From the NCBI GenBank assembly GCA_947465495.1, contig CANIAS010000021.1:1-44105 (forward strand): a DNA stretch of 44,105 nucleotides. The letters run 5' to 3'. The position numbers and the translations under genes are program-made. This document shows positions 11,442-35,200 of this stretch, piece by piece; the first letter of the stretch is position 1, and the number at the start of each line of letters is the position of its first letter. Source of the DNA: Candidatus Pollutiaquabacter sp. (GTDB lineage Bacteria; Bacteroidota; Bacteroidia; AKYH767-A; 2013-40CM-41-45). The notes under the pieces are model-generated. The model had not been told where the DNA came from. It ran no database searches and worked only from the letters and a program-made list of their open reading frames with translations.

Positions 11442-11900
11442 TTAGCTGGCAAGTTTTGTTTCAGGGGCCGCTTCGACTACAGGTTTAAAGACAATGATTG
11501 ATTTGATGGAGTTGGATATCAGGCAAGCTGCTTCTGATTTAGCAAGAATTCTCAAGGTTCGTTCTTTGTCTCGCTCATGACTAATAACTACATTGGGTTC
11601 TAAAATTATTTCACTCATGGTTAGTTTTCCATCCATCATTTCCAGTTTGCCGGTGGCCTTTGAGTGAAAATCGAGAAATTCCAGTTTGGAATTTTCGGCA
11701 ATTGCCAAAAAGGTCGTCATCAAGCAGCTATTAACAGCTGCGGTGAAAAGATGTTCTGGGGACCAAATGTCAGGAATGCCTTGCGGAAATTCCGGAGGTG
11801 TTGCAACTTGGATGGATTCATGCAGGACGGGAGAAGTTAGTGTACCCCGTCGTTCGGCATCCCATTTAACGTTTACTTCGTAGTGATGTATAGTTTCCAT
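11442..11900 (-). CDS. OsmC/Ohr-family thiol-dependent peroxidase
   Basis: A 152-residue OsmC-superfamily protein. The family's two redox cysteines are visible: AAVNSCLMTTF (first half) and KSEAACLISNSIK (second half), together with the preceding conserved SPEHLFTAAV. OsmC and Ohr proteins reduce organic hydroperoxides with a Cys pair, and related members act on sulfane sulfur. It is last in a run of two rhodaneses and a thioredoxin and starts 2 nt after the thioredoxin stop, so thioredoxin could supply its electrons, although Ohr proteins usually use lipoyl donors. The ATG at 11898-11900 is chosen over an in-frame start at 11963 because the latter would overlap trxA. Confidence 0.88.
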   Translation of the reverse strand: METIHHYEVNVKWDAERRGTLTSPVLHESIQVATPPEFPQGIPDIWSPEHLFTAAVNSCLMTTFLAIAENSKLEFLDFHSKATGKLEMMDGKLTMSEIILEPNVVISHERDKERTLRILAKSEAACLISNSIKSIIVFKPVVEAAPETKLAS

Positions 11901-11902
11901 GA

Positions 11903-12196
11903 TTAATATTTTTCTACTATTCGTTGTAGTTGATCGGCTGGAATGACGCCCGATTGCCGCCATTTAATTTCACCTTCTTTAAAAAGAATCAGTGTTGGTA
12001 CCCCTTGTATTTGGTAAGCTTGCGCAGCTGCTGGGTTCTTATCGACATCTACTTTTAGAATAGTGATTTTGTCGCCCAATTGCTTTTTTACCTGTTCTAA
12101 AATAGGTGCCATCATTTTACATGGTCCGCACCATGTCGCAGTAAAATCTACCAATACTGGCTTTTCTCCGTGTATCAAGGATTGGAAATTGCTCAT
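11903..12196 (-). CDS. trxA: Thioredoxin
   Basis: A 97-residue cytosolic thioredoxin with the redox motif [13 protein letters not shown], the cis-proline segment [11 protein letters not shown], and the conserved VDVDKNP and LVDF strands. The length is slightly short for the family (about 105) but complete. It sits between two rhodanese genes and OsmC (gaps of 11 and 2 nt), suggesting it reduces persulfidated or oxidised cysteines produced by its neighbours rather than serving only as a general thioredoxin. Confidence 0.95.
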
Positions 12197-12207
12197 TGTA
12201 GAATAGA

Positions 12208-12519
12208 TTATAAGTACTTATTCAACGTGTGCCAGCTTCCTCCGTTGTAAACTTCCTGGAATCCTTGTGCGCGAAGGTAGGATTTGGCTGAACCGCTTCG
12301 CATACCAGATGCACAACAAGTAATGATTGGCTTTTCTTTATGAAGTTTTGAAACTTGTTGTGGTAGCTGTTGCAATGGGATGTTCACCGATCCCTTCAGG
12401 TGTCCACTTTGATATTCTCCTCTTGTACGCACATCGATGATAGTAGCACCTGCTTTAATCAATGCGCTATAGTCCGCTTTAGGCCCAATTCCCAATATTC
12501 GCTTTAAAGTATTTAGCAT
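12208..12519 (-). CDS. Single-domain rhodanese (sulfurtransferase), second copy
   Basis: A 103-residue rhodanese-like protein. After a short basic helix ([18 protein letters not shown]) the rhodanese fold follows, with [23 protein letters not shown] and the active-site loop [12 protein letters not shown], in which the second Cys is the expected persulfide-carrying residue. The C-terminal YNGGSW motif is usual for this subgroup. The fold transfers sulfane sulfur between donors and thiols. It lies 11 nt after the first rhodanese, which it resembles (same CCASG loop), so the two probably arose by tandem duplication. The ATG at 12517-12519 is used; an in-frame start at 12567 would overlap the upstream gene. 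Confidence 0.92.
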
Positions 12520-12530
12520 GTATATTTTTT

Positions 12531-12785
12531 TTAATTGTTGTTTATAAGCAGATTTACTCGCATCCAAGGTCCGCCGTTTTCACAGGCTATTCCTTTTGAC
12601 TTTAAATAACGTGTTACTTGTTCACTTCGTGCGCCAGAGGCACAGCATAGCACCAAGTCTTTTTTGTTCTCTAATTCGTGAATCCGAGCTTCGATTTCAT
12701 TAATAGGAATATTGATGCTTCCTGCAACATGACCACTCATGAATTCTTGTGGCGTACGGACATCAACGATATAGTATTTTTTCAT
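12531..12785 (-). CDS. Single-domain rhodanese (sulfurtransferase), first copy
   Basis: An 84-residue rhodanese domain with almost no extra sequence: YYIVDVRTPQEFMSGHVAGSINIP, then the active loop CCASGARSEQV and ENGGPW. The catalytic Cys is the second of the CC pair. MKKYY at 12785 is taken as the start; an ATG two codons earlier (12791) is equally possible. The gene heads the rhodanese, rhodanese, trxA and osmC unit, with a -7 element and a perfect palindrome upstream and the Crp/Fnr gene beyond. It probably moves sulfane sulfur in the cytosol, passing it to or from the neighbouring thioredoxin. Confidence 0.92.
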   Translation of the reverse strand: MKKYYIVDVRTPQEFMSGHVAGSINIPINEIEARIHELENKKDLVLCCASGARSEQVTRYLKSKGIACENGGPWMRVNLLINNN

Positions 12786-12819
12786 AGTCATTTTTGTAAA
12801 TGAATCAATCATGTTACTT

Positions 12820-12827
12820 CAAATGTA
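12820..12827 (-). promoter_or_regulatory. -7 element of the rhodanese-thioredoxin-OsmC unit
   Basis: TACATTTG on the minus strand matches TAnnTTTG. The transcription start would be about 12815, leaving a 24-30 nt leader. No TTTG occurs at the normal -33 spacing; that position is occupied by a palindrome, as expected of an activator-dependent promoter. Confidence 0.55.
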
Positions 12828-12839
12828 TGGTAAGTCACT

Positions 12840-12870
12840 CCGTTTGTCAGGAACAAATGTTCCCAAACGG
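12840..12870. promoter_or_regulatory. Palindromic candidate operator for the adjacent Crp/Fnr regulator
   Basis: GGAACAAATGTTCC (12850-12863) is a perfect 6+2+6 palindrome. Just outside it lie a second pair of inverted arms, CCGTTTG (12840-12846) and CAAACGG (12864-12870), the left separated by TCA. The centre, 12856.5, is about 41 nt upstream of the predicted start at 12815. That is the class II activation position of Crp/Fnr proteins. It lies between the stop of the Crp/Fnr gene and the rhodanese start. As an RNA it could also fold, but no T-run follows on the minus strand, so a simple terminator is less likely. Confidence 0.55.
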
Positions 12871-12878
12871 TATGTTTT

Positions 12879-13484
12879 TTACAGGATTTCAATCGTATTT
12901 CGTCCCAATCGAACTAGATTTTTCTGTTCCATGGTTCGAAGTAGTCGACTAATAGCTTCTCGCTGGGCGTGCATCTCGTCAGCAATTTGCTGATGGGTGA
13001 TGAATAGAGTGGAAGTATTTATGGCTTTGCTGCGCTCCTGCAAATAATGTAACACTTGCTTGTCCATGTTGCTAAAGGCAATCAAATCAATAACATGTAA
13101 TAACTCCGCAAATCGTGACCCATAGGTTTGATGTACAAATAATCTCCATTCTTCAAATTTTTGCAGGTTTTCTAGCTCCTGAATAGGAATCATTAGTAAT
13201 TGGCTTTCATCTTCTGCAATTATTTTAACCATGCTTTGCCTTTTCATCTGGCAGCAGTTCAATGCCAATGCGCATGTCTCGCCTGAATACAAATGATACA
13301 TGAAAACCTCTTTTCCATCATTGTTCTGACGGACAACTCTCAACGCACCATCTAAAACGAACGGGACAAAATAAACTTCGTCACCAGTAGAAATGAGCAA
13401 TTCGTCCCGTTGGATGGTTTTTTTACGGGCAACACGAAAAAGTTCCTGGTTCAATTCATTGTTTTGAAAAATCGAATCCTTCAC
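12879..13484 (-). CDS. Crp/Fnr-family transcriptional regulator
   Basis: A 201-residue regulator, starting at GTG (13482-13484); the next Met is at residue 62. Residues ~15-115 form a cyclic-nucleotide-binding-like beta barrel (ELLISTGDEVYFVPFVLDGALRV). Residues ~120-145 are the dimer helix. The C-terminus is a winged helix (FITHQQIADEMHAQREAISRLLRTMEQ), with R175, E176, S179 and R180 in the recognition helix, a combination of the Crp and Fnr contact residues. The sensor domain contains SGETCALALNCCQMKR, with C71, C77 and C78. The spacing is not that of the Fnr iron-sulfur cluster, and the phosphate-binding signature of cAMP-binding Crp is not obvious. The ligand is unknown; the cysteines and the rhodanese/thioredoxin neighbours suggest a thiol-based sulfur or redox signal. 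It is likely to control the gene run immediately downstream. Confidence 0.9.
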   Translation of the reverse strand: MKDSIFQNNELNQELFRVARKKTIQRDELLISTGDEVYFVPFVLDGALRVVRQNNDGKEVFMYHLYSGETCALALNCCQMKRQSMVKIIAEDESQLLMIPIQELENLQKFEEWRLFVHQTYGSRFAELLHVIDLIAFSNMDKQVLHYLQERSKAINTSTLFITHQQIADEMHAQREAISRLLRTMEQKNLVRLGRNTIEIL

Positions 13485-14708: not shown

Positions 14709-15116
14709 TTAGTCGGTTTTTCGCGCTGGAAGTTCTTCGAGTACATCCAGGAGCATTCCAGCGGTCAAAGTCTTGCTTTTGAATCCTTTGACCAATAGGT
14801 TTTTATTGGCTTTCATGCGGTCCCGATCGTCTAGTGAAGAGGTAAGCATGTAAATGCTCATCTGTTTCACTGTTTCAGCCGGATAGGCATTCAGTTGCTC
14901 CAGGAATTCGAACCCGTCCAGTTCGGGCATGCGAATATCTAAAAAAAGAACGTGCGGTAGTGGTTCTTTTGCGTCAAGTTTTTTTTTCAAATAATTCAAG
15001 CCTTCAGTACTGGAGGTAAAGATCTTGATTTTAGCATCTGGCTCCACTTTTTCAATCACTTCTGAATGAATGTAGTTAAAGATGTTGTCGTCATCAATAA
15101 GCAGGTAGTTATGCAT
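14709..15116 (-). CDS. Single-domain response regulator (CheY-like)
   Basis: A 135-residue receiver domain with no output domain. The acidic pocket is LLIDDDN (8-10), the phospho-acceptor D60 lies in VLFLDIRMPELDG, the switch residue in YMLTSS, and the conserved Lys in LLVKGFKSK. It follows the histidine kinase by 3 nt and is presumably phosphorylated by it. As it cannot bind DNA, its output must be a protein-protein interaction, either in a phosphorelay or by acting back on the FIST/kinase partners. Confidence 0.92.
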   Translation of the reverse strand: MHNYLLIDDDNIFNYIHSEVIEKVEPDAKIKIFTSSTEGLNYLKKKLDAKEPLPHVLFLDIRMPELDGFEFLEQLNAYPAETVKQMSIYMLTSSLDDRDRMKANKNLLVKGFKSKTLTAGMLLDVLEELPARKTD

Positions 15117-15119
15117 GAT

Positions 15120-17618
15120 TCAGGTTTTAGGTTTCGCAGGTAATTTGATGGTCATTTCAGTTCCTTCTCCAAGTTTAGAACTGACTCCAATTTCTCCGCT
15201 TAATTTACTAACTATTTCTTTGCAGATATATAATCCGAGACCGGTACCAGGTACGTTGCTAGTGGCCCGGTAAAACATGTCAAAAATCTTTGGTAGATTA
15301 TTTTCGGCAATTCCTTGTCCATTATCCTTCACGGTAATTTCAATGGTTTCGCCATGATGACGGATGTGCACTACTACCGACGGTGCATTTGTGCCGTTAC
15401 GGTAGTACTTTACGGCGTTTGATATGATGTTTTTCAATACGGTATTCAGCCGGTAGCTGTCCGATTCAATCATCGGACTACCTTCACTGGACACTTCAAA
15501 ATACATGTTGGCGGGAGTAGCATATCGCAAGTCTTCAAAAATGTTTGCGATTCGTTCTTTTAGGTTGAATCGGGTTATTTTTAATTCTAATCTAGAATTT
15601 CTGGAGTAGTCAAGAATCTCTTGAATGGTTTCATCCAGGCGATCGGCCGAACTGTTAGCCATCTGAAGGAAGTTTCTTGATTTCTCGGAAATGTCTTCAG
15701 CGTCCTGTACGATACCGAGAATGCCTTTGATGGAGAGCAGGGGAGAACGTAGATCGTGAGAAATACTATAGACGAAATTATCCAGTTCGGCGTTGATCTT
15801 TTGCAATTCTTCGTTTTTATGCAATACATCCCTTTGAACGTTCTTCAAGTCGGTAATGTCAAGATAGATACTGATGAAACCGGTTGTCTCTTGTTGCTGT
15901 CCGAGTACGGCCTCTGTACTAACCAATACATGCATCAAACGACCATCGTTTCGAATTAAGTCAATTTCATAGACGCTTTCATCGACTTTTCGGTACGATT
16001 GCACTTTGCCTTGTTGCTGTCTTGTTGAAAGTTCCAACTCTGCATTTGAAGCAAGTAGAATCGCAGACGCATCAGTGTCTTCAGTCAATGAAACAAATTT
16101 TCGATTCATGAAACGGATCTGGCCCATCGTATCCACTTCTGCCAATCCTAGATTCATGTTGTCGATAATACTACGATATTTTTCTTCGCTGGCTTTTAGT
16201 TTTAATTCAGTATTCTTGGCATCGGTGACGTCCACCGAGGTTCCCACCAATCGAATCAGCTCTTGGTGTTCATCCCGTTCTGCAATAACTAAGCAGTGTA
16301 GTGTACGGGTCTGCTTGTTATTTTTCCTTAGGATTCTGAATTCCTGCTCAATCATTTCTTGTTGACTATTCATCAAGTTTTTCACTTCATTCTCAATTTT
16401 CTCACGATCATCAGGGTGCATCGAGTTAATCCAGAAGTCATACATTTCTGAATCCTTTTTAGGTTGCTCAACGCCATACTGTTTGAGCATTACTTCATTC
16501 CATACTAGTTGTCCAGTAGATGGAATAAATTCCCAGATTCCAATGTTTGATTTGGTAGTAATTATTTCGAAACGGGAGTTGATTTGTAACATCTCTTTTT
16601 GGGAGATAATTTCTTGAGTAATGTCTTTTTGCAGTGAAATAAAATTGATAAGATTTCCGTCTTCATCAAATACCGGCGTTATTTCAAGTAGGTTATAATA
16701 AGGAGTACCTTTCTTCGTGTAATTCATTAAGGTCACTACAACATTTCGCTTGGCCAGTAAAGCCGCACTCAATTCACGTAAAACCTCTGGATCGTTGCTG
16801 TTTTGCAGCAGAAAGTCTTTTGGTTTTTTCCCTTTTATTTCCTCTAATCGATATCCGGAGGTTTGCTCAAAACTCTCGTTGACCCATTCGACCTGTCCCT
16901 TATTGTCTGTAATAACAACCCCATTTTTCGTTCGGGTAGCAATCAGCGATAACTTCTTTAGTTCTCTATCGGAGGATTGAATCTGCGTAATTTGTTGAAT
17001 GATTCTTTTTCTTTTTTGACGATTCGACAACAGTGATTGAACTTGTTGCGCAAAAATTTTAAAAATCGTCGCGTGGCTGGTGTGCTTTTTAGAGTAAAGT
17101 GGCGCTTTTTTAATTGAAATCAATCCAATGAGGAAAATAGAAAATGTTTGTTCGGGATCGGCAATTTGTATGAAAAGTCCGTCACTATATGGAGCAAGAA
17201 ACGGAACAGATTGAAGTACTAATTTCTCTAATACTACCTGCCTTAAAGTGGCCGGTTTCGTGGCCAGGGCTTTCATGGATTGTATCATTTCTTCCTCTTG
17301 ATTGAGTTGATGCACCAATCCTTCACTGTATAGTAATGAGCCGCCTTGTTCCTGCGACCGCTCTAGATAAACGACCGATGATTCTACTTCAAATACATCG
17401 ATAATAGCCTCGGCAATCAGTCGTAGAAAATCGTGTCCGCTTAATTCTTTTAAAGCGTCATTGTTGAATAAATGCAGTCGCTTGTACATTTCTAGCTCGT
17501 GATCCAGTTGATCACGAGTATTGATCAATTCCTGTTCTACCGAGGAGAACCGAGTTACACGGAGTTGTAGCTCCTCATAAGCTGCTTTTAATCGTTCTAG
17601 TTCTGACAGGGCTGTCAT
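15120..17618 (-). CDS. Cytosolic multi-PAS hybrid-free histidine kinase
   Basis: An 832-residue sensor kinase without transmembrane segments. Order: N-terminal coiled coil (about 1-45); a GAF-like region (about 55-200: LRLIAEAIIDVFEVESSVVYLERS); PAS1 (about 225-345: KNGVVITDNKGQVEWVNESF ... LQKDIT); PAS2 of the PAS_3 type (about 350-475: IGIWEFIPSTGQLVWNE ... MHPDDREK); PAS3 (about 480-600: MNLGLAEVDTMGQIRFMN ... YLDITDLKN). It continues with HisKA containing VYSISHDLRSPL (phospho-acceptor H621) and HATPase with NIISNAVKY, DNGQGI and GTGLGLYI. It is flanked by FIST (24 nt before) and the response regulator (3 nt after). The kinase is soluble, so its input is intracellular, and the FIST protein is the best candidate for ligand detection. 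PAS1 resembles a LOV fold but has no photoactive Cys. Confidence 0.93.
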   Translation of the reverse strand: MTALSELERLKAAYEELQLRVTRFSSVEQELINTRDQLDHELEMYKRLHLFNNDALKELSGHDFLRLIAEAIIDVFEVESSVVYLERSQEQGGSLLYSEGLVHQLNQEEEMIQSMKALATKPATLRQVVLEKLVLQSVPFLAPYSDGLFIQIADPEQTFSIFLIGLISIKKAPLYSKKHTSHATIFKIFAQQVQSLLSNRQKRKRIIQQITQIQSSDRELKKLSLIATRTKNGVVITDNKGQVEWVNESFEQTSGYRLEEIKGKKPKDFLLQNSNDPEVLRELSAALLAKRNVVVTLMNYTKKGTPYYNLLEITPVFDEDGNLINFISLQKDITQEIISQKEMLQINSRFEIITTKSNIGIWEFIPSTGQLVWNEVMLKQYGVEQPKKDSEMYDFWINSMHPDDREKIENEVKNLMNSQQEMIEQEFRILRKNNKQTRTLHCLVIAERDEHQELIRLVGTSVDVTDAKNTELKLKASEEKYRSIIDNMNLGLAEVDTMGQIRFMNRKFVSLTEDTDASAILLASNAELELSTRQQQGKVQSYRKVDESVYEIDLIRNDGRLMHVLVSTEAVLGQQQETTGFISIYLDITDLKNVQRDVLHKNEELQKINAELDNFVYSISHDLRSPLLSIKGILGIVQDAEDISEKSRNFLQMANSSADRLDETIQEILDYSRNSRLELKITRFNLKERIANIFEDLRYATPANMYFEVSSEGSPMIESDSYRLNTVLKNIISNAVKYYRNGTNAPSVVVHIRHHGETIEITVKDNGQGIAENNLPKIFDMFYRATSNVPGTGLGLYICKEIVSKLSGEIGVSSKLGEGTEMTIKLPAKPKT

Positions 17619-23282: not shown

Positions 23283-26200
23283 CTAATTTTGAATAAACTT
23301 CTTGCGTAGGAATTCGCCATCCGTAGTTTGGATGTACAGAGAATAGCACCCTGCTGCAACGCCTGGTATGGAGATTTGATACGTCGAGCCTCTAGTTTCT
23401 ACATCCGTAGTAAATACAATGCGCCCTGCTAAATCATAGATAGCTACCCTCTTTAGGTACGTATCATTGTTAAAGGTGATAAACAACTTTTGTTCTTCCG
23501 ACTTGCAATGTGTTAAGGTCAATTCGTTCTGTTGGTTGAATTTTACAACTTCGATTTGACTCACGGTGCTTTTTCCGTCAAAATCGGTTTGTCGTAAGCG
23601 GTAATAACTGATGCCGTCAAAGGGTTCTTCGTCGGTAAAGTCATACGAGTGCACGCTTGACGATGTGCCCGAACCTGAAATTGTACCAACATTATCAAAA
23701 TTAATAGCATCACGACTTCGTTCAACCGTAAAGAAATCGTTATTCAATTCACTCATGGTTACCCAAGAGCAATGCACAACGGTGAGGTCGGCCAGGGCTC
23801 GGAAATAAAGTAGTTCGACTGGCAGTGGTTGTGATGTATTGGCACCAGTGAAGTCGGAAAAAGAGGAGAGGTTGTTCCAAATAAATGTTTTGCTGGCTAC
23901 ATTGTGCGATCCTGATGAGCCGGTGATGTTAATAATACCTGATCCCGGGCAACTGCTCCAAAGTGCAATACCGCTGGAAATACTATATTTTACAGGATAC
24001 AATGTTCCACTACCTATTATCTCGGTCGGATCGAAATAAGTATAAGTTGCATCGTAATCAATTCCTGAAAGTAAACCTGTTGGTTCCATACTCCAATAAC
24101 GATTCAGGTAATTGGTTGCTGCCAGGTTGGGCTGTTTGCCTCGTGTAACTTTAGATCTGATTACAGCTCCAGTTTGAGTGCCACTGTGGATATTCAATTC
24201 GATGGGTGTGTATTGCAAGGAGTCTCCCAGCGGAAACGTATAACTGATGTTGGTGTTGGTATGGCGTATGAAATATCCATTTATACTATTAATGTGCTTT
24301 CCGGTACCAGCACCTGATAAATTACCATTAGATGTGTTTGTTCCCAGAGTCAGTGTTTTTCCGTTTAAGTCGATGATGCCATCGTTGAATGTGATGGCTT
24401 CTGTCACAATAACGTCGGTCATTAGTCGCAGCGAATTGTTGTTCCAGCTGTTACTCATCATAATTGATCCTACTTGCTGCGTTGCTGTTGCAATGATGTG
24501 TTGCAAAACGCTTCCGGAAAAACGCAATGTGCCGCCTCCAAACATAGCGACTCCATTATTGGTAATATCTCCATAAACGCCAAGGTCGAATGCCGGTGTT
24601 ACAGTTACCGAAGCGGTAGGTTGCATGGTCAGATTCCTACACACCGACGTGTTGTTACTTGATACAGTTGGATAATTTCCGCCAATAGGCGTAGTTGGAA
24701 TAGTAACATCGGTGGTAGTTGTTGGAACTGAACGGCATCCCCAGTTTGTTGGTGTATCCCAATTATTAGTATAGCCAAGCCATTGCCCAGGACGTTCGAT
24801 GGTGGCAATTACGGGTACTCTTACACCATTTGAACAACCGTTGTTTACAGCTTCCGCATAATAGGTAGTAGTGGTTGAGATGACTGGAGTTTGAAAGGTG
24901 CTGCCGTTACCGATTAGTGAGCCGCCTGTAGCAGCTGAATACCATTGAACAGTCCCTGCACTAGAGGTAGCTCCCAAGGTTACGCTCGCCGAAGTACATC
25001 CACTCGAATCTTGTGTGGATAATAGACCCGGCATGGCACTTACTGTAATATGTATCGTGTCTGCAGGCCCTGTACATCCGTAGGCAGTTGAAACGGGCAC
25101 GATGCGGTAGAAGACTTGACCTGGAGCAGTATTACCGGTTTGAGTTAGTGTTTGGCTTAACGTACTTCCGTTACCGGAAGATGCTCCAGAAAGGCCACTG
25201 CTTACGCCGAAGGTACTCCAGCTGTAGGTTGATGGAATAGTTGCCGATAGATTCACGATGACCCCTGATCCACTGCAGATGGTATCGTCAGGAATTGCAT
25301 TCATAATCGGCTGCGGGCGAATGGTAACAGTTACCGGTTGTACACTGCTGCAACCATAAACGGATTCAATACCTTGTATGTAATAGGTGGCAGCTGAGTC
25401 AACCGCAGTAGGTGTAGCAAGTGCATTGGTCAATGCGGTGGTTGTCCAATAGGTGTATGTCAATCCGGGAGTGGATCCAGTTGTGACGGCAGGCAATGTT
25501 AGGTTAACAGCACCTGGGGCGCACACTGCTGCAGGTGGGGTAACAGTCACTACAGGATTTGAATGTACGATAACCGTAGCACTTCCTGATTGAGACTGTA
25601 AGCAGAATGACGCATTAGCATAGACTAAGTTTTGCAATTCGTACTGGAAGGTGCCTGGTACATTCGTAGGAGGAGTGACAGTCACACTGTCTGCAGTCGT
25701 TGAAGTGGTAACAGTTGCATTAACACCATTCACGGAATAATAAAAAGTGTAGGGTGGATTTGCACCCACCGCATGGAAGGTGACCTGGGCCGAGCTACCT
25801 TGACAAACGGATGGTGTAGAAACGATGTTTCCCAGACTACTCATGCTGACCGTAAGTTCGGTGCTTTCTACTCTTGGGCATCCGTTGTTTCCCGTAACAG
25901 TTGTTAGGTAAGTAACTGGTGCACTTGGTACCGCTGATGTTGAGTTTGTAGTTGAACCACCAGGCCACCAGGCGTAGGTGAAGGAATTGCTCACAGTTAC
26001 CCCAGATGCAATAAAGTTGGGATTACCTAATGCCGGGCCAGTCCCATAGGCTGTTGTGGTCGAATTGACGACGGTTGGCGAATTGTCCGGCTGATCCATT
26101 TTGTAATAAGCCTTCAGGTTAGCTGTCACCTGAGGGTAGTTGGTGGTCATGTCCGTTGCGATTTGTGCGGCAGGAACAGCGGTGTTAAAAATTCGTAGCT

Positions 26201-29200
26201 CGTCTATCTGGCCATTCCAGAATCGTGTACCACCGGCCCATCGACCGAGGCGCAGTGATTGCGTTCCGTCGTACAAGATGTTGCCCAACGTCCATGCTGT
26301 AGTAGAAATTTGGACACCATTCAAGTAAACAGTTAACGCCGTGCTACTTTTAACAAGAGTTACGTGTTGCCAGGTATTTGCCGTTAAGTTGAACAGCACG
26401 GAAGCGGAACCCAACGGCGTATAACAAGCAAAAGAATACTGATTGGTTACAGCGTTGTTTTGTGCGACCGTCCAGCTTAGTCCGGTAAAAGAGTAATTAT
26501 TATCAATGATCGTAGCATACGGTGATTGAACGGAAGATGGTTTAAGCCAGAATTCAATGGTGAAATTTCGATAGTTGAACCAGTTGCCAAGGTCCGCACT
26601 TTGTGAATTTCCATCCAGCCGTAAGGCATTGTTGAAAGTCGCAGGTACGGCCACCAAATCAACGGATGCACCTTGACAGATTGGAGACGTATTCCCAAGG
26701 ATGCTAACCAATGGTGGATCGATGTTACGGAAGACGACCTGGTTGATGGTGGTCGAGCAATTATAGGCGTCCGTGAAAACCGCATAATACGTACCCGGTT
26801 GACTGACAGTACGGGTAGCACTAACTGAAAAATCGTCCCAACGGAACGCTGAGGAACCAGAAGCTGAAAGTTGCAGACTCGTTGTGTTGCAATTAAGTTC
26901 GGGATTATTGGCAATAATGGAACCGGTTGGAGCTGCACGTATTACTACTGTTACAGGTTTTATGTCGTTGCACGTTCCGAAGCGAGTTGCTTTGATGTAA
27001 TAGGTTCCAGCGCCTACGTCGCGAGGATTGGAAAGCAATACGGTACCAGCTGCATCGGACCAGTACGATATAGTCATGTCCGGTGCTGTTCCGGCAGTAA
27101 TGGCTGCAACAGTGAGATCGATGGTCAGCGGACTGCAAACAGGTGCAGGTGGCGTGATGACGAGAAGTGGTAACTTGACGATAGTGCGGTTGGATGAAAA
27201 CGTAATGGCTGAGCATCCTGTAAGTCCTGGGGTAATTATGCAGGTTACCACATCGTTGTTGGACAGTCCTACATTCGTATAATTAGCTGAGAGTCCATTT
27301 TGCACTGTCACGCCATTCACTTTCCATTCGTAGTTAGCGGCACCTGCATTGGAGGCGCCAGCTACATATCCGCCGTTGTGCGGATTGTATATAATAGCGT
27401 CAGTGATGGTCCCACCTTGATTAAAAATGGAAATATCGGCCATCAATGGTAAAGTAGTCGCTACCGCTACACTGGTAAATAGAATTTGATTGTTTTTGTA
27501 GTAACGTACTTTGTTTTGTCCTGCGACCAACTCAACACTCAAACGCAAAATATCACCGGGAAGGTAGCTGCTCGTGAAGCCCCGATCAACACCTGATTCT
27601 ACAATGCGCAGTTCGCCAGTTGCTAAAAGATGGTAAGCAAAAGCGATACTAGTATAATTGCTATTGGCATTCGTAACACTCAATCCTGCCATTCGTGCTT
27701 TGTTATTTTCGGTAACGGTGAATTGGAACCCACCGTTCATACTTACAGTGTTCCAACTGGCTGCTCCTCCGTCCCAGGAACCATCGGATTGAATCTTTAA
27801 TAAATTGTTGGTAGTGGCCGATACATTGGCGAGGTCGCTGGTCTTCCACTTTACTTCTTCATACAACACGTTGCAAGACGTGGTTACCGGCACCCCTTTA
27901 ACATAAGCATCCACATTGGTAGGAACGATAATGATATTGCGCAGATCGTTGGAGATGAGCGGAGCATTCGATACACAACCCGCTAGGTTAGCGGTCATCT
28001 GACATTTAACCAGATCGTTGTTGTTTAAGGAATTGTTGGTATAAGTAGCCGAAACGCTGTTTTGTACTGTAGCACCGTTCACAGACCATTGGTAGGTGGG
28101 TGAGGCGCCTGCATTCAACGATACAGCTTCAAATTGACCGCCGTTATAATTAACAACTACCGGTGATTGCACGGTGCCGCCTGGTTCAAAAATGGAAACG
28201 TCAACTAATAGGGGTAAAGTCGGAACTAGTAAACTGTTGTAAACGGCAATACTGCTTTTATAGTAACGCACCACGTTGGATTCGACACTGATGCGGAAGG
28301 TGTCACCCGTCGCATAGGTGCCCGTGATACCGACATAGCTACCAGCTTCATAGATACGGTATGAAGAATTGTTTTCCAGCAAAAATCCATACCGTATGGT
28401 CGTTTGGTCAAATCCAGTATTCGTGGTGCTTAATCCGATCATTCTATTCTTATTCGTCTCGGCGGCAATACATTCAAAGTAACCGTTGTTACTCACGGTA
28501 TTCCATGAAGCTGCTCCACCGTCCCAGCCATTTATCGTGCCTGTTTTAACGAGTTGGTTAACGTTAGCAACATTCATGTTGGTGGTTAGATCACTCTTTT
28601 TCCATTTTACATCTTCTCGTACCATGGAGCAGGAGGTAGGTACTGCAATACCGCGAATGGCAAAATCAATATTAGTTACAGCGGTAATTGTATTGATAAT
28701 GATGTTTGATGTAAATGGGCTAGAGCTGCATCCTGAAAGGGCGGAGCTGGCAACACACCGCACAGTATCGTTGTTTTGTAAAGAAAGATTGGTATACGTA
28801 ACAGAAGGGCCCGTTTGAACCGTTACACTATTTACACTCCAAGTGTAATTGAGGCCAGTGCCTAGGTTAAAGGTATTTGCGGTGAAATTGCCACTTCCAA
28901 GATTAGTAATGACGGCATTGCTGACTGTTGCTCCAGCGTCGTAAAGAGAAACATCCACCATTAAAGGCAGAGCAGGTGCCGTTCCGCTGACATATACGAG
29001 TATTCCGTTTTTGTAATACTTGACCACATTGGATTCGACAGCAATCCGGAACACATCGTTCATAGCATACGTTGCACCTGGAATTGCAATGGTATTTCCG
29101 GATTGTCTGATGTCGAAAGTAGCGCTACTGGTAAGGTAAAAGGCAAATTGAATGCTACTCCAGTCAGCATTCGGATTGGTACTGCTAAGTCCAATGATGC

Positions 29201-32200
29201 GAGGCTTATTCGTTTCAAGGGCTTTGAATTCGAAGTATCCATTGTTATGCACTTTATTCCAGGAGAAAGCACCGCAATTCCAACCCGTGTTTTGCATGCG
29301 AATCAACCCATTTCCGTTAACGACTGATGCATCTCTGCTAAGGTCGGATATCTTCCAACGCACCGGTTCTGTCACGAGTGCGCATGTAGCAGTTGCTGGT
29401 TCGGATGTGATGGCGAAATCAGACAAGGCTGGAAGGGTGTTGCTAACCACGACATAGTTCGACTGATAAGCAAACGGAGTACATCCAGGAATTCCACTGG
29501 TTAAGGTGCAGCGTACGGTGTCGCCACGTAACAACGATGTATTAGTATAGGATGACAACGTACTGTTTTGCACGACAACATTGTTGACTTTCCATGAATA
29601 AGTAGCTCCGCTTCCTGCATTGACTGAATAGGCTTGGAATGTTCCGTTGGTGTAATTAGCAACTTCCGCTTTGCCTATGGTGCCGCCGATATCGTATATT
29701 GAAGCATCAACGTATAATGGCGGTGAAGGATTTAGATTACTGATATAGAAAAGTACATTGTTACGGTAATAGCGAACTACTAAATTGTCCACCCAAATTT
29801 TAAAAATATCGCCGGCTACATAATTGCCAAAACCGCCACGATCGTTGTTAGATTCATACACCCTGAAGGCGCCTGTGCTTTGCAATAGAATTCCGAATTG
29901 AACAGTGGCCAGCGAAGCATCCAGATAGGTGTTGGATAAGCCAAGAACTTTTGCTTTGTTGTTTTCAGTAGCGACAAATTCCAGGTAGCCATTATTGTAC
30001 ACTTTGTTCCAGGATGCAGCTCCTCCATTCCAAAGTGCAGGACTTTGAAGTTTCAAAAGGCTATTGTCGGAGCGAACGGTCATGGTAGCAGCGCTGACTT
30101 CACTCGCTTTCCACTTTACTTGTTCAATGGTGAAATGACAACCTGATGCACTGCCATTAGCTCCAATATAGAAATCAGCACTGTCAGATACAGCAGGTCG
30201 ATAGATGATGTAATTGGAATTAATTACTTGCGGTGTGCAGCCCGGCAGATTACTGTTTAGTATACATCTGATGGTGTCGTTGTATTGAAGATTCGATGGG
30301 ATAAAGCTACTTTGATTATTAGTTAGGATGATGTTGCTATTGATCATCCATGTGTAGGTTCCGCCATTTGGAATGTTGGAAACAAAGGTGCCGTTGTTGT
30401 AGTTCACAACAATGGCATTGGTGACTGTTCCGCCAGCTTCGTTGATGGATACATCCGCCATGATTGGTAACGCAGGCGCTACAGTACTGATATAAACCAA
30501 GATACCATCCTTGTAGTATTTCAAGATGCCGTTGTCAATGCCAATTCGGAAAACACTACCTGGTGCATAAGTACCCATTAGCCCACGGTCAGCCCCACTT
30601 TCGTAAATACGGTAGAAGCCGTCGTTCTGCAAGTAGAAGCAGAAATTAATGGAGTTTTGGTCGGCGCCGCTATTGATAGTCGTTAACCCGACAGCACGGA
30701 GCTTGTTGTTCTCTGTGGCCGTGAATTCAAAGTATCCACGGTCTTTTACTTTGTTCAATGAAGCTGCACCTCCATCCCATACTCCGTTGCCAGTGGTTTT
30801 CAATAAGCTGTTTACATTGACAGCAGACATGTTGCCGGTCATGTCGGAATTGCTCCACATCACTTGTTCGATGGCTATGCTGCAAGACGGATAGACGCGC
30901 TGCCCTTCAATAAAGAAATCAGGAGTCAGCTGTGGCGCCGTACTGATAATAATTCGATTGGATAAGTAATTATTTCCTGCTAGACAGCCTCCCAACGAAA
31001 TTTGACAGGTAAGCTGATCTCCTACTGCTAACGAAGTGTTGGTGTAGGAGATGCTACGGCCGGTTTGTACCACAATGCCATTTACCATCCAGGTGTACGT
31101 AACATCATTACCCGTCTGCTGTGCAATGGCAACAAAATCTCCATTGTTATAATTGTACACCATGACGTTGGTGAGTGTAGCACCGATATCGTTCAACGAT
31201 GCATAGACCAGTAACGGTAAGGATGGAGTAATAGTACTTGTGTAAACTAGTGTTCCGTTTTTGTAATACTTGATGGTGCCAATCTGAATGTGAATACGCA
31301 AAATATCACCAGTGGCATAGGTTCCGAAATTTCCGCGACTTACACCGCTTTCATAAATACCAAGTATGCCGCCTGTTTGAAGGTAAAATGCGTATTGTAT
31401 TCCGGTGTAGCTGGAAGTGGTGTAGCTACTGCTCAAACCAAGCATTCGACCTTTGTTGGTTTCGCTGGCTGTGAATTCTACATAGCCGTTGTTGTAGACA
31501 CGGTTAAGACTGGCTGCTCCGCCATCCCATCCTGTAGTTAATTGTTTGGTCAGATTATTACGGCTGCGAACGACGCGTGAAAGGTCTTGGAAATTGGTAA
31601 AATTGTTCCAAACTACTTCTTCGCCTGCCATACGGCAAGAGTTTTGTTCCACTTCACCTCGAATGAAAAAGGATAACGCCGGATTTGGCAAAATGGCTCT
31701 TCGTCTGATAATGTTCGACGTGACGGTGTTGTTCAAACATCCTACTAACTGCAGGTCACATTGTAGTACATCTCCCGCAACCATGGTTGGATTGATGTAC
31801 TGTGAGGTGTTTGGTCCTGAAACTACTCCATTGAGCTTCCATTGGTAATTCGCGGGAAGACTTCCATTGATGACAATCGCATTGAAATAGCCGCGGTTAG
31901 GATTCCAGATGACAGGATCCAAAAGCGTGGAACCTACATCGTAAAAAGTGGCATTAGCACGAAGTGGCAACGAAGGAACCGTATTGCTGGTGTAGAACAA
32001 CACGCTGTTTTTGTAGTAGCGTACTTTGCCTTGTTCAATAGCAATGCGGAAGGTGTCTGTGGCAGTGTAGTTATTAAACGTTCCTCTGTTAACGCCAGCT
32101 TCAATGATGGATAGTGTAGCGCTATTTTGCAAGTAGATGCCGTATTGTATAGCAGCTTGCGCATTTCCAGTATAGGCAGTGCTTAGTCCGATTGTTCGTG

Positions 32201-35200
32201 CTTTGTTGATTTCAGCTACCCTGAATTCAAAATAACCTCCTTCAACTACTTGGTTGTAACTGATGATGGCAGCATCCCAAGCCGTAGAGCTTGTTTTGGT
32301 TACTAGGGTAGGTGTAATCGATAAGCGTTGTTGGTCCGATAATGTGGTGAAACTCCAAACGGCTTGTTCACCGGCCAGCCAGCAAGCCGTAGAATCAGGA
32401 ACTCCTTGAATGTAAAATGCCAAGGATGGATTCGGAGCTGCTGGTTGAATAATTATCTGATTAGACGGTAAAATAGTGCTAAAGCATGTTTGAAATGACA
32501 AATCACATGTTAGAATTGACCCTGTGGCAAGCGAAGGGTTAGTATAAGTTGCCGAATTTCCGCCATTGGCAACGGCGTTCGTCTTCCAGGTATAATTCAG
32601 CGGACTTGTTGTGTTAATAGCATAGGCGTTAAAGGCGCCATTGTTTAGATTCCATACAACCATCTCAGCGGCAGTCGCACCGATTTCATTGAGCGCAGCC
32701 TGCGCCATCATCGGCAAAACAGCAGTTACACTGCTGGTGAAAAACACTACTCCATTCTTGTAGTAGCGAACCACGTTATTATCAACGGCCACCCTGAATA
32801 TATCATTGGCTGCATACGTGCCGAAGTTACCCCTGTTGTTTCCTGATTCATAAATGCCGATGGTGGCACTGCTTTGCAGGTAGATTCCATACTGTACTGT
32901 TGGGTAACTATTTGTAGTGTAAGAGTTGCTTAGGCCAATAATTCTGTTTTTGTTGATTTCAAGGGCTTTGAACTCCAAATAACCGTTGTTGTAAACTTGG
33001 TTGTAGGAAACAGCAACAGCATCCCATCCGTTACTCAAACGTTTTGTAGCGGTATTTGCTGCAAGGGTAAGACGTTCCTGATTGCTCAACGCTGTGAATT
33101 TCCAAACTACTTGCTCGCCCGCTTTTCGACATCCATTCTGATCTGGAACTCCAGCAATGTAAAATGAAATGCTTGGACTGGGTTGTGCCAGTATTGTGGT
33201 AATGGTGTTGGAGGTGTAGGTGTTGGTGAAGCAACCGGTAAGCTGAAGCGTACACGCTACAACGTCGTTGACATTCAGCGTAGGATTACTATAATTTGAG
33301 GATGTGCTTGATTGAACGGATACTCCGTTGACGGTCCAGTTGTAAGTAGGATTAGCCGGACCGTTTAATACAGTTGCTGTGAAAAGGCCTCCAGATCGAT
33401 TATAAATGCTCAGGTTGATGATGGATCCCCCCGGATCCGCAATGCTAACGTGCGCGAATTGTGGAAGGGTGGGTGCAATTGTACTTGTGTAAAATAGAAT
33501 GTTGTTGCGGTAATAATTGACGCGTCCGCCTTCAATAGCTACGCGCATAACATCTCCTACAGCGTAATTTCCAAATGTGCCTTTGTTGGTGCCAGATTCG
33601 AATATCTGCAAGCTTCCGTTATTGGCAAGGTAAATAGCATATTGGATATTGGTATAGCTTATCCCTGTAATAGTATTGCTCAATCCACCCATCAAAGCTT
33701 TTGACGTAAGTGTAGCAGTGAACTGGAAGTAGCCGTTGTTGTTGACTTGGTTTAACGATGCTCCCCCTGCATCCCAAGTCGTTCCTGAAATTTTGGTGAT
33801 ACTCGTTGGCGTTGTCTGAATCCTCGGACCATTGTCCAGGGAAATGAACCTCCAAGCGATTTGTTCCGAGGTCATCTTGCAGTTGCCAGTGTCCGCTAAG
33901 CTGCGTATGTAGAATTGCAACGATGGATTTGGAGCTGAATTGATTAACGTGGCGCTGTTGGAGATTACAGAATTACTGGCGCAACCATCCAGTGTAATGG
34001 AACATGTGAGCAGGTTGGTTGACGTAAGATTTGGGTTGGTATAAGTATTACTATTTGTTCCGGTATTTACTCCGTTGAGTTGCCATTGATAAATAGGGTT
34101 GGGACCGGTATTCGATGCATTGGCCATGAAAGTGCCACTGCACGGATTTGAAACCGTAACCTGGGATACCGTAGCACCGATATCAGCCATCGAAACGTGA
34201 ACTATCATGGGCGCAACAGGCGCAACCAGACTGGTATAGAACAAGACACCGTTTTTGTAATAGCGAATGGTGCCCGATTCAATCGCAATGCGGAATAAAT
34301 CGTTGGCGGAATAGTTTCCGAAACTACCCGAAGGTCCGCGACTTATTCCTGATTCGTACACGTCTACCATCCCATTTGATCGAAGGTAAACGGCAAATTG
34401 GATGTTGAGATAATTGACTCCTGTGAAAGAAGTACTTAATCCAAGCATCCTGGCCTTGTTAGTTTCAACGGCCCTGAACTCTACGTAACCATTATTACTC
34501 ACTGTGTTGAGTGATGCAGCGCCACCGTCCCAGCTAATGGTGTTGATTTTGGTCAGGTTGTTGGTGGCCACTGTTGCGTTAGCTACTGTGGCGCTGTTCC
34601 ACACTACTTTTTCAGAAGAAAGTTTGCAGGAAGTTTGATCGGTTACTGCACCAACGTAAAAATCCAATCCTGCAATAGTTGTAGGGGATCCATAGTAGCT
34701 TCCTTGGTCGCATTGGAGAATTCGTCGTTCGGCAGGTAACAATGCACTCGCAAAAACAATCGCTTCGGAAAGCTCCATTTCGGTGAAATAGTTACTGGTC
34801 TGCGATGGATTATTCAATTGGCCCATAGCTATTCCAGTTGATGGAGTCAATGGAATGTTGGGTAATGTGAAATTGTATTCTACACCGTCTTTAGCCATCG
34901 TCAAGGCACTTCCGACTTGAATGGCATTGTAAGTGTGGATTGCGCCACCCGGATCCGGATTGATAACAGTTCCGGTCACGTCGCATCCCCAAGCCGACCA
35001 GCCTACCATGTTGTTGTTGGATCGGTAGAAGAAACGGCCGCGTCGTGTATCGTTGGTAGTTCCAATTCCGAAAGGCAGATCGGTATTGCCAACTCCCGTA
35101 AGACTTAACCATCGTGTCACCATGTTGATGGTACTGCTAGAAGCTGTGATAGTGGCAGCGTTATTAGTCAGAAAGGAGGAAGCGGTATAGGCGCGATCAC

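Follow-up and report, generated by a model that had tools for sequence, protein, structure and literature searches.

A Crp/Fnr-type regulator with a dyad at fixed promoter distance and a predicted sulfane-sulfur operon in Candidatus Pollutiaquabacter

A 44,105-nucleotide (nt) contig of Candidatus Pollutiaquabacter sp. (Bacteroidota; CANIAS010000021.1; its full length is referred to as the window) carries a run of five minus-strand genes for a Crp/Fnr-family regulator, two rhodaneses, a thioredoxin and an OsmC-superfamily protein. With moderate confidence, we read this run as a local, activator-controlled operon for the handling of sulfane sulfur (persulfide or polysulfide), which its own Crp/Fnr-type regulator would switch on. 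The reading is carried by a dyad behind the regulator gene, the spacing between this dyad and the promoter, the linkage of the regulator to sulfur genes and the conservation of Cys71, all of which are established by the comparison of relatives; the signal, the regulator's attachment to the dyad and the chemistry of the enzymes are inferred. The parts are ordinary, and the novelty lies in a variation on a known theme, a regulator with a site at a fixed distance.

In the proposed mechanism, the regulator gene would be transcribed separately from the operon. A regulator dimer would bind GGAACATTTGTTCC, which lies close behind the regulator gene and has its centre 41.5 base pairs (bp) before the operon start. 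From there, it would act as a class II activator and bring RNA polymerase to a TAnnTTTG promoter of the Bacteroidota kind. The putative signal is the reaction of sulfane sulfur, at the nucleotide-pocket region, with Cys71 and, in proteins that have them, with Cys77 or Cys78. Each of the two rhodaneses would hand on sulfane sulfur as Cys persulfide, the thioredoxin would reduce persulfides, and the OsmC protein may serve as an accessory thiol enzyme. The features of the unit are listed below, with protein lengths in amino acids (aa).

12879..13484, minus strand: Crp/Fnr-family regulator, 201 aa, GTG start; recognition helix REAISR; Pfam PF00027 and PF13545
12850..12863, no strand given: predicted operator GGAACATTTGTTCC, a 14-bp dyad (5-N4-5) within the 93-nt gap
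12820..12827, minus strand: predicted -7 promoter element TACATTTG, consensus TAnnTTTG; predicted transcription start near 12815
12531..12785, minus strand: rhodanese 1, one-domain, 84 aa; loop CCASGARS; Pfam Rhodanese 51.3 bits
12208..12519, minus strand: rhodanese 2, one-domain, 103 aa; loop CCASGMRS; Pfam Rhodanese 67 bits
11903..12196, minus strand: thioredoxin, 97 aa; WCGPC; TIGR01068 115.9 bits (cut-off 96.8)
11442..11900, minus strand: OsmC-superfamily protein, 152 aa; Cys contexts NSCLMTTF and EAACLISNS; Pfam OsmC 50.8 bits

The five open reading frames (ORFs) lie where a preliminary description of this DNA had placed them, and the gaps between them, when recomputed, are 93, 11, 11 and 2 nt. 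Its family calls also held, since each protein scored above the Pfam gathering score in a profile search (cNMP_binding and HTH_Crp_2 for the regulator, Rhodanese twice, Thioredoxin, and OsmC). An alternative in-frame ATG for rhodanese 1 exists upstream, at 12812; the start of the 84-aa ORF appears to fit the predicted transcription start at 12815 and the start in the same-genus locus L031 better.

A dyad behind the regulator gene and its distance from the promoter

The comparison rests on 96 loci, the window included. A search of 61 genomes for the regulator gave a match in 47. Outside the own genome (2.72 Mb in 117 contigs), there were 63 matches, and for 40 of them a longer stretch was taken. 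A second, named set of 57 loci was collected with two peptide patterns, of which two already present in the first set were dropped; the near-alike pairs L104/L107, L116/L117 and L102/L118 were kept. Most of the named relatives are genomes from metagenomes, with Chitinophagaceae and Flavipsychrobacter represented. The genes of every locus were identified by tblastn, for which the five window proteins and thirteen others, twelve of these from relatives, served as queries.

When intergenic DNA was screened broadly for perfect inverted repeats, most of the output was AT-rich noise, and GTAAC-N4-GTTAC at first stood out only weakly. Relatives carry the same or a like dyad after the regulator gene, of the form G[GT]AAC-N4-GTT[AC]C or GTRAC-N4-GTYAC. 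A rule that combines this pattern with at least 4 of 5 paired arm positions was applied to the first 250 nt after the regulator stop at all 96 loci, two of these regions being shorter than 100 nt. The rule found the dyad at 31 loci, or 30 distinct sites when identical copies were counted once, as compared with none in the same regions reversed and one in the stretches that precede the regulator genes. In 200 first-order shuffles, the mean was 0.38 and the maximum 3, a figure to be taken as a guide because the rule was shaped on the same data. The dyad follows the regulator in 15 of 19 close relatives with sulfur genes and in 0 of 3 without; over all loci, it was found in 26 of the 66 with at least two sulfur-gene matches versus 5 of the 30 with fewer. 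Autoregulation through the dyad was also considered and was not supported, given the single site among the regions upstream of regulator genes. A second inverted repeat, CCGTTTG...CAAACGG, flanks the window's dyad off-centre at 12840-12870; by eye, it is absent from the relatives' sites that were inspected.

The distance from the dyad to the promoter was used as a separate test, as it is a feature absent from the dyad rule. TTTG starts exactly 26 nt after the dyad at 24 of the 30 sites, while the other offsets from 0 to 56 hold at most 2 sites each, and the joint occurrence of the dyad and TTTG at 26 nt had a mean of 0.005 and reached at most 1 in the shuffles. CRP and FNR, when they act as class II activators, sit on a two-fold site at -41.5. 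According to PMC9723704, the -7 box of Flavobacterium psychrophilum sigma-A is TAnnTTTG, located at -12 to -5, which would place the centre of the dyad at -41.5 and the predicted transcription start near 12815. At 24 of 30 sites, the dyad would thus be centred at the class II distance from the predicted promoter.

This constancy bears on two other explanations of the dyad. It could be a repressor site, with the regulator silencing the operon until it is modified by persulfide. CstR and SqrR act as repressors (PMC9774590), and a site spanning -48 to -35 could touch an upstream promoter element. However, repressor sites tolerate varied positions, whereas the spacing here is constant and -41.5 is the place of a class II activator, so we consider repression improbable. 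Still less probable, to the point of being hardly credible, is that the dyad is no operator and forms the stem of an intrinsic terminator of the regulator gene. It does lie directly past the regulator stop, and a T-run follows it in L104 and L107; however, TTTT occurs within the next 10 nt at just 4 of 30 sites, dyad positions 2 and 13 are often unpaired (GTAAC...GTTCC), and the distance to TTTG is constant. An operator for an activator is our preferred reading of the dyad.

Within the own genome, the bare dyad pattern occurs at 34 sites. Of those examined besides the window's own, eight, each in a region opened for the purpose, lie inside ORFs, two lie inside ORFs of the window, and one precedes the rhodanese-thioredoxin fusion gene on contig C100. 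The joint dyad-TTTG pattern, searched on both strands, has one exact match, that of the window. Allowing one mismatch in the 44-base joint pattern gave 11 matches versus 12 for the backward control, and a wider regulon can therefore not be read from the joint pattern.

Linkage of the regulator to sulfur genes in Bacteroidota

At least two sulfur-gene matches lie by the regulator at 66 of the 96 loci, at 63 of the 92 in which the regulator ORF is longer than 150 aa, and at 19 of the 22 whose regulator is at least 50% identical to that of the window (window excluded). The exceptions among the 22 are L103, where the contig ends at the gene, L108 and L114. Gene content varies: rhodanese 1 is found near the regulator at 29 of 96 loci and OsmC at 7, the latter being optional, and rhodanese 2, thioredoxin and OsmC occur together at 4 loci (the window, L032, L043 and L105). 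The same-genus locus L031 has the regulator, two rhodaneses and the thioredoxin, without OsmC. A rhodanese-thioredoxin fusion sits inside the cluster in relatives. Other neighbours were labelled PDO, TauE, SQRrhd and CoA-disulfide-reductase/rhodanese, names given by resemblance.

The preliminary description had seen the five genes as a self-contained persulfide-handling unit with its own regulator and had proposed a neighbourhood search across Bacteroidota. Among the loci compared here, the linkage between the regulator and sulfur genes recurs (66 of 96 loci), whereas the exact five-gene set is not conserved; the window shows one form of a larger cluster whose make-up varies. Both the gene neighbourhood and the shared dyad at a fixed promoter distance speak for a sulfur-handling unit under its own regulator. 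The term self-contained did not hold, as the clusters of relatives hold further sulfur genes and related genes of the own genome lie on two other contigs, C68 and C100.

Some neighbours are of another kind. At L056, L063 and L069, a small DUF2892-like gene follows the regulator homologue and rhodanese matches are missing. As L056 and L069 keep the dyad after the regulator without rhodanese matches, the regulator family may have other targets. On the other side of the window's regulator, upstream of it and of RlmL, a kinase-like gene (832 aa, labelled without a family search) and a receiver-only response regulator occupy 14709-17618. In L031, a kinase end and a receiver stand directly before the regulator, at 3 nt, which suggests that the two-component genes may be read with it. 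Elsewhere in the window, a single minus-strand ORF of 4329 aa extends over 23283-36272.

The regulator as a candidate thiol-based sensor

The regulator belongs to the CRP/FNR superfamily by its Pfam scores (PF00027, 36.6 bits; PF13545, 36.3 bits; both above the cut-offs), and the fold matches agree. Its AlphaFold2 model has the CRP/FNR fold (pLDDT 87.3, pTM 0.62), with Thermus thermophilus CAP and 3dv8 as the best matches in the PDB. It is the sole match of its kind in the own genome at an E-value of 0.001. In the secondary structure of the model, Cys71 is placed just before helix 72-79 and Cys77 and Cys78 inside it, in the nucleotide-pocket region.

All 92 homologues have Cys71, whereas Cys77 is present in 77 and Cys78 in 43. 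Peptide patterns supplied 51 of these homologues, and one pattern includes both Cys71 and Cys77; fairer figures are therefore given by the other 41, found by whole-protein search and including the window, in which Cys71 is kept in 41 of 41. The closest solved sequence, EUBREC_1222 of Eubacterium rectale (PDB 3dv8), also has cysteines at the Cys71 and Cys77 positions; it differs in coming from another phylum, and the title of the entry gives no role.

The cyclic AMP (cAMP) contacts of CRP are Glu72 and the phosphate contact Arg82. The Glu is not kept, being Ala in the window's regulator, and an acidic residue at 72 or 73 was found in only 1 of 92 homologues. Arg82 is present by profile alignment to CRP Arg82, and Arg occurs at 82 or 83 in 8 of 92. 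The score against the NCBIfam CRP model (39.3 bits versus a cut-off of 266) is far below the mark. The regulator resembles NtcA and CRP in its fold and in the predicted placing of a two-fold site at -41.5, a usual class II place, and differs from them in that their effector is 2-oxoglutarate or cAMP, with the CRP Glu not kept and the CRP Arg found in few homologues. In FNR, four cysteines ligate a 4Fe-4S cluster, three of them near the N-terminus. The 201-aa regulator has three cysteines in all (Cys71, Cys77 and Cys78), so that an FNR-type set of four is absent, and it also stays below the NCBIfam Fnr cut-off (19.1 versus 228 bits). Given the loss of the CRP Glu, the absence of the FNR cysteine set and the conservation of Cys71, the regulator is likely a thiol-based sensor. 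Because of the neighbouring genes, sulfane sulfur would be its likeliest signal.

The same operon and activator could instead answer another signal, such as oxidative or disulfide stress, nitrosative stress, oxygen or a small pocket ligand, with the enzymes serving thiol repair or sulfur trafficking. The OsmC-superfamily protein and the thioredoxin of the unit would suit this, conserved cysteines can sense oxidants too, and the window's Arg at the place of CRP Arg82 makes a pocket ligand possible; 30 of the 96 loci, moreover, lack two sulfur-gene matches. Against it, the recurring partners resemble sulfur enzymes (PDO, CoA-disulfide-reductase/rhodanese, TauE and rhodaneses, labelled by resemblance), while OsmC is found at only 7 of 96 loci; three cysteines do not make up the FNR cluster set, and Arg at 82 or 83 is confined to the 8 homologues. 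We regard another signal as unlikely, though as the most serious of the alternatives weighed here.

Besides the circularity of the dyad rule noted above, several observations weigh against an operon switched on by sulfane sulfur. The rule finds no dyad in 65 of 96 regions, including those of four close relatives with sulfur genes (L031, L032, L120 and L124); in L031 and L120 the dyad is more degenerate, and the regulator of L124 is broken up in the ORF set used. Fewer than two sulfur-gene matches were found at the 30 loci just mentioned, some of them on cut contigs, and 5 of these keep the dyad, so the regulator family may serve other targets. In the set not found through the cysteine-bearing peptide pattern, Cys77 is kept in only 27 of 41 homologues, and 6 of the 15 homologues without Cys77 still lie by rhodanese 1, meaning that a two-cysteine switch would not be universal. 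The backward control of the joint dyad-TTTG pattern also has one exact match in the own genome; as control and pattern are equal, the pattern alone is no proof, and it is the position after the regulator that counts. Finally, the window's thioredoxin is not the sole one, since the genome holds 3 other thioredoxin-fold matches of some strength.

Enzymes, a possible second target and known persulfide sensors

Both rhodaneses carry a rhodanese-like domain by their PF00581 scores and a Cys-containing loop, although neither reaches the NCBI cut-offs for the PspE/GlpE thiosulfate sulfurtransferases (best, 45.5 of 102 bits). In the loci, 49 of the 54 hits that rhodanese 1 gave as a tblastn query carry the double-cysteine loop CCASGxRS, as do 57 of the 85 given by rhodanese 2, a set that overlaps the first. 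The thioredoxin exceeds the NCBI equivalogue cut-off of TIGR01068 and has the WCGPC motif. The likely enzyme chain runs from rhodanese persulfide to thioredoxin. The OsmC protein is the sole match of its kind in the own genome (E 0.001). The preliminary description had raised a peroxide role for it as an OsmC/Ohr protein. Its membership of the OsmC superfamily is borne out; the peroxide side is weak, given its presence at 7 of 96 loci and scores below the NCBI cut-offs for Ohr (22.5 of 88.85 bits), OsmC (24 of 85.8) and the SACOL1771 peroxiredoxins (59.8 of 166.15). With such scores, peroxidase is an unsafe label.

One-domain rhodaneses are able to serve either detoxification or biosynthetic sulfur supply. 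The unit might accordingly deliver sulfur for iron-sulfur clusters, thio-tRNA or molybdopterin and have no part in detoxification. A rhodanese-thioredoxin fusion gene on contig C100 (L212:2853-3641) lies not far from genes labelled, from their sequences alone, as SufS/SufE-like; the dyad GTGACGGATGTCCC stands upstream of the fusion gene, without TTTG at 26 nt. The operon itself, however, has no biosynthetic partner gene, and the clusters of relatives add dioxygenase-like and CoA-disulfide-reductase-like genes, which leaves the biosynthetic role rather improbable.

Sulfane-sulfur handling under the regulator may extend beyond the operon. Apart from the unit, the own genome has a persulfide-dioxygenase-like (dioxygenase-rhodanese-like) gene on contig C68. 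Upstream of it (L091:10040-10175), we found by eye ATGACTAAAATCAC (ATGAC-TAAA-ATCAC), followed by TAAATTTA at 26 nt. The copy of this gene in the same-genus genome G002 has ATGACTTACATCAT with TAACTTTA. Under a looser dyad rule, the promoters of persulfide-dioxygenase-like genes at 30 loci gave a site in 3, with TAACTTTA, TATTTTTG or CACCTTTG at 26 nt; the C68 copy does not pass this looser rule. As just 3 of 30 pass, the C68 gene is a lead only: it is a possible second target, on which the regulator would act through a variant dyad at an unchanged distance.

The known persulfide sensors CstR, SqrR and FisR are proteins of the CsoR, ArsR or sigma54-activator type, and the regulator is of none of these types, its domains and fold being those of CRP/FNR. 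The neighbours under CstR control include rhodanese, persulfide dioxygenase and TauE-type genes. CstR, which acts on the cst operon of Staphylococcus aureus, is all-helical, tetrameric and a repressor, whereas the window's regulator has the CRP/FNR fold and a site placed as for an activator. The likeness lies in a persulfide-answering regulator with a Cys pair beside the genes that it controls, the answer to persulfides being putative in our case; for CstR, the cysteine pair and the control of neighbouring genes are described in PMC9774590. SqrR, BigR and FisR, which have other folds, control different enzymes, and SqrR and BigR are repressors. What they have in common with the proposed system is that genes for sulfide and sulfane sulfur answer to reactive sulfur, as described for SqrR (PMC9774590) and BigR (PMC5823870) and reported for FisR.

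In the open literature, among the matches listed, we found no work that connects persulfide or rhodanese genes of Bacteroidota with a Crp/Fnr regulator, and reactive-sulfur sensing by Bacteroidota did not turn up there either; most subscription papers were outside this scope. More tentatively than the operon itself, and at less than even confidence, we propose that the regulator represents a separate Bacteroidota sensor class, in which an activator of the CRP/FNR fold would read persulfide through Cys71, often with Cys77, and bind G[TG]RAC-N4-GTY[AC]C. Placed at exactly -41.5 of TAnnTTTG promoters, it would activate operons that encode rhodanese, thioredoxin and persulfide dioxygenase; in this genus, the stand-alone persulfide dioxygenase gene may be a target as well. 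With a site, a spacing and a residue all predicted, the sensor idea lends itself to testing. If it is true, a cysteine-based activator of the CRP/FNR fold would add both a fold and a mode of activation to the known persulfide sensors.

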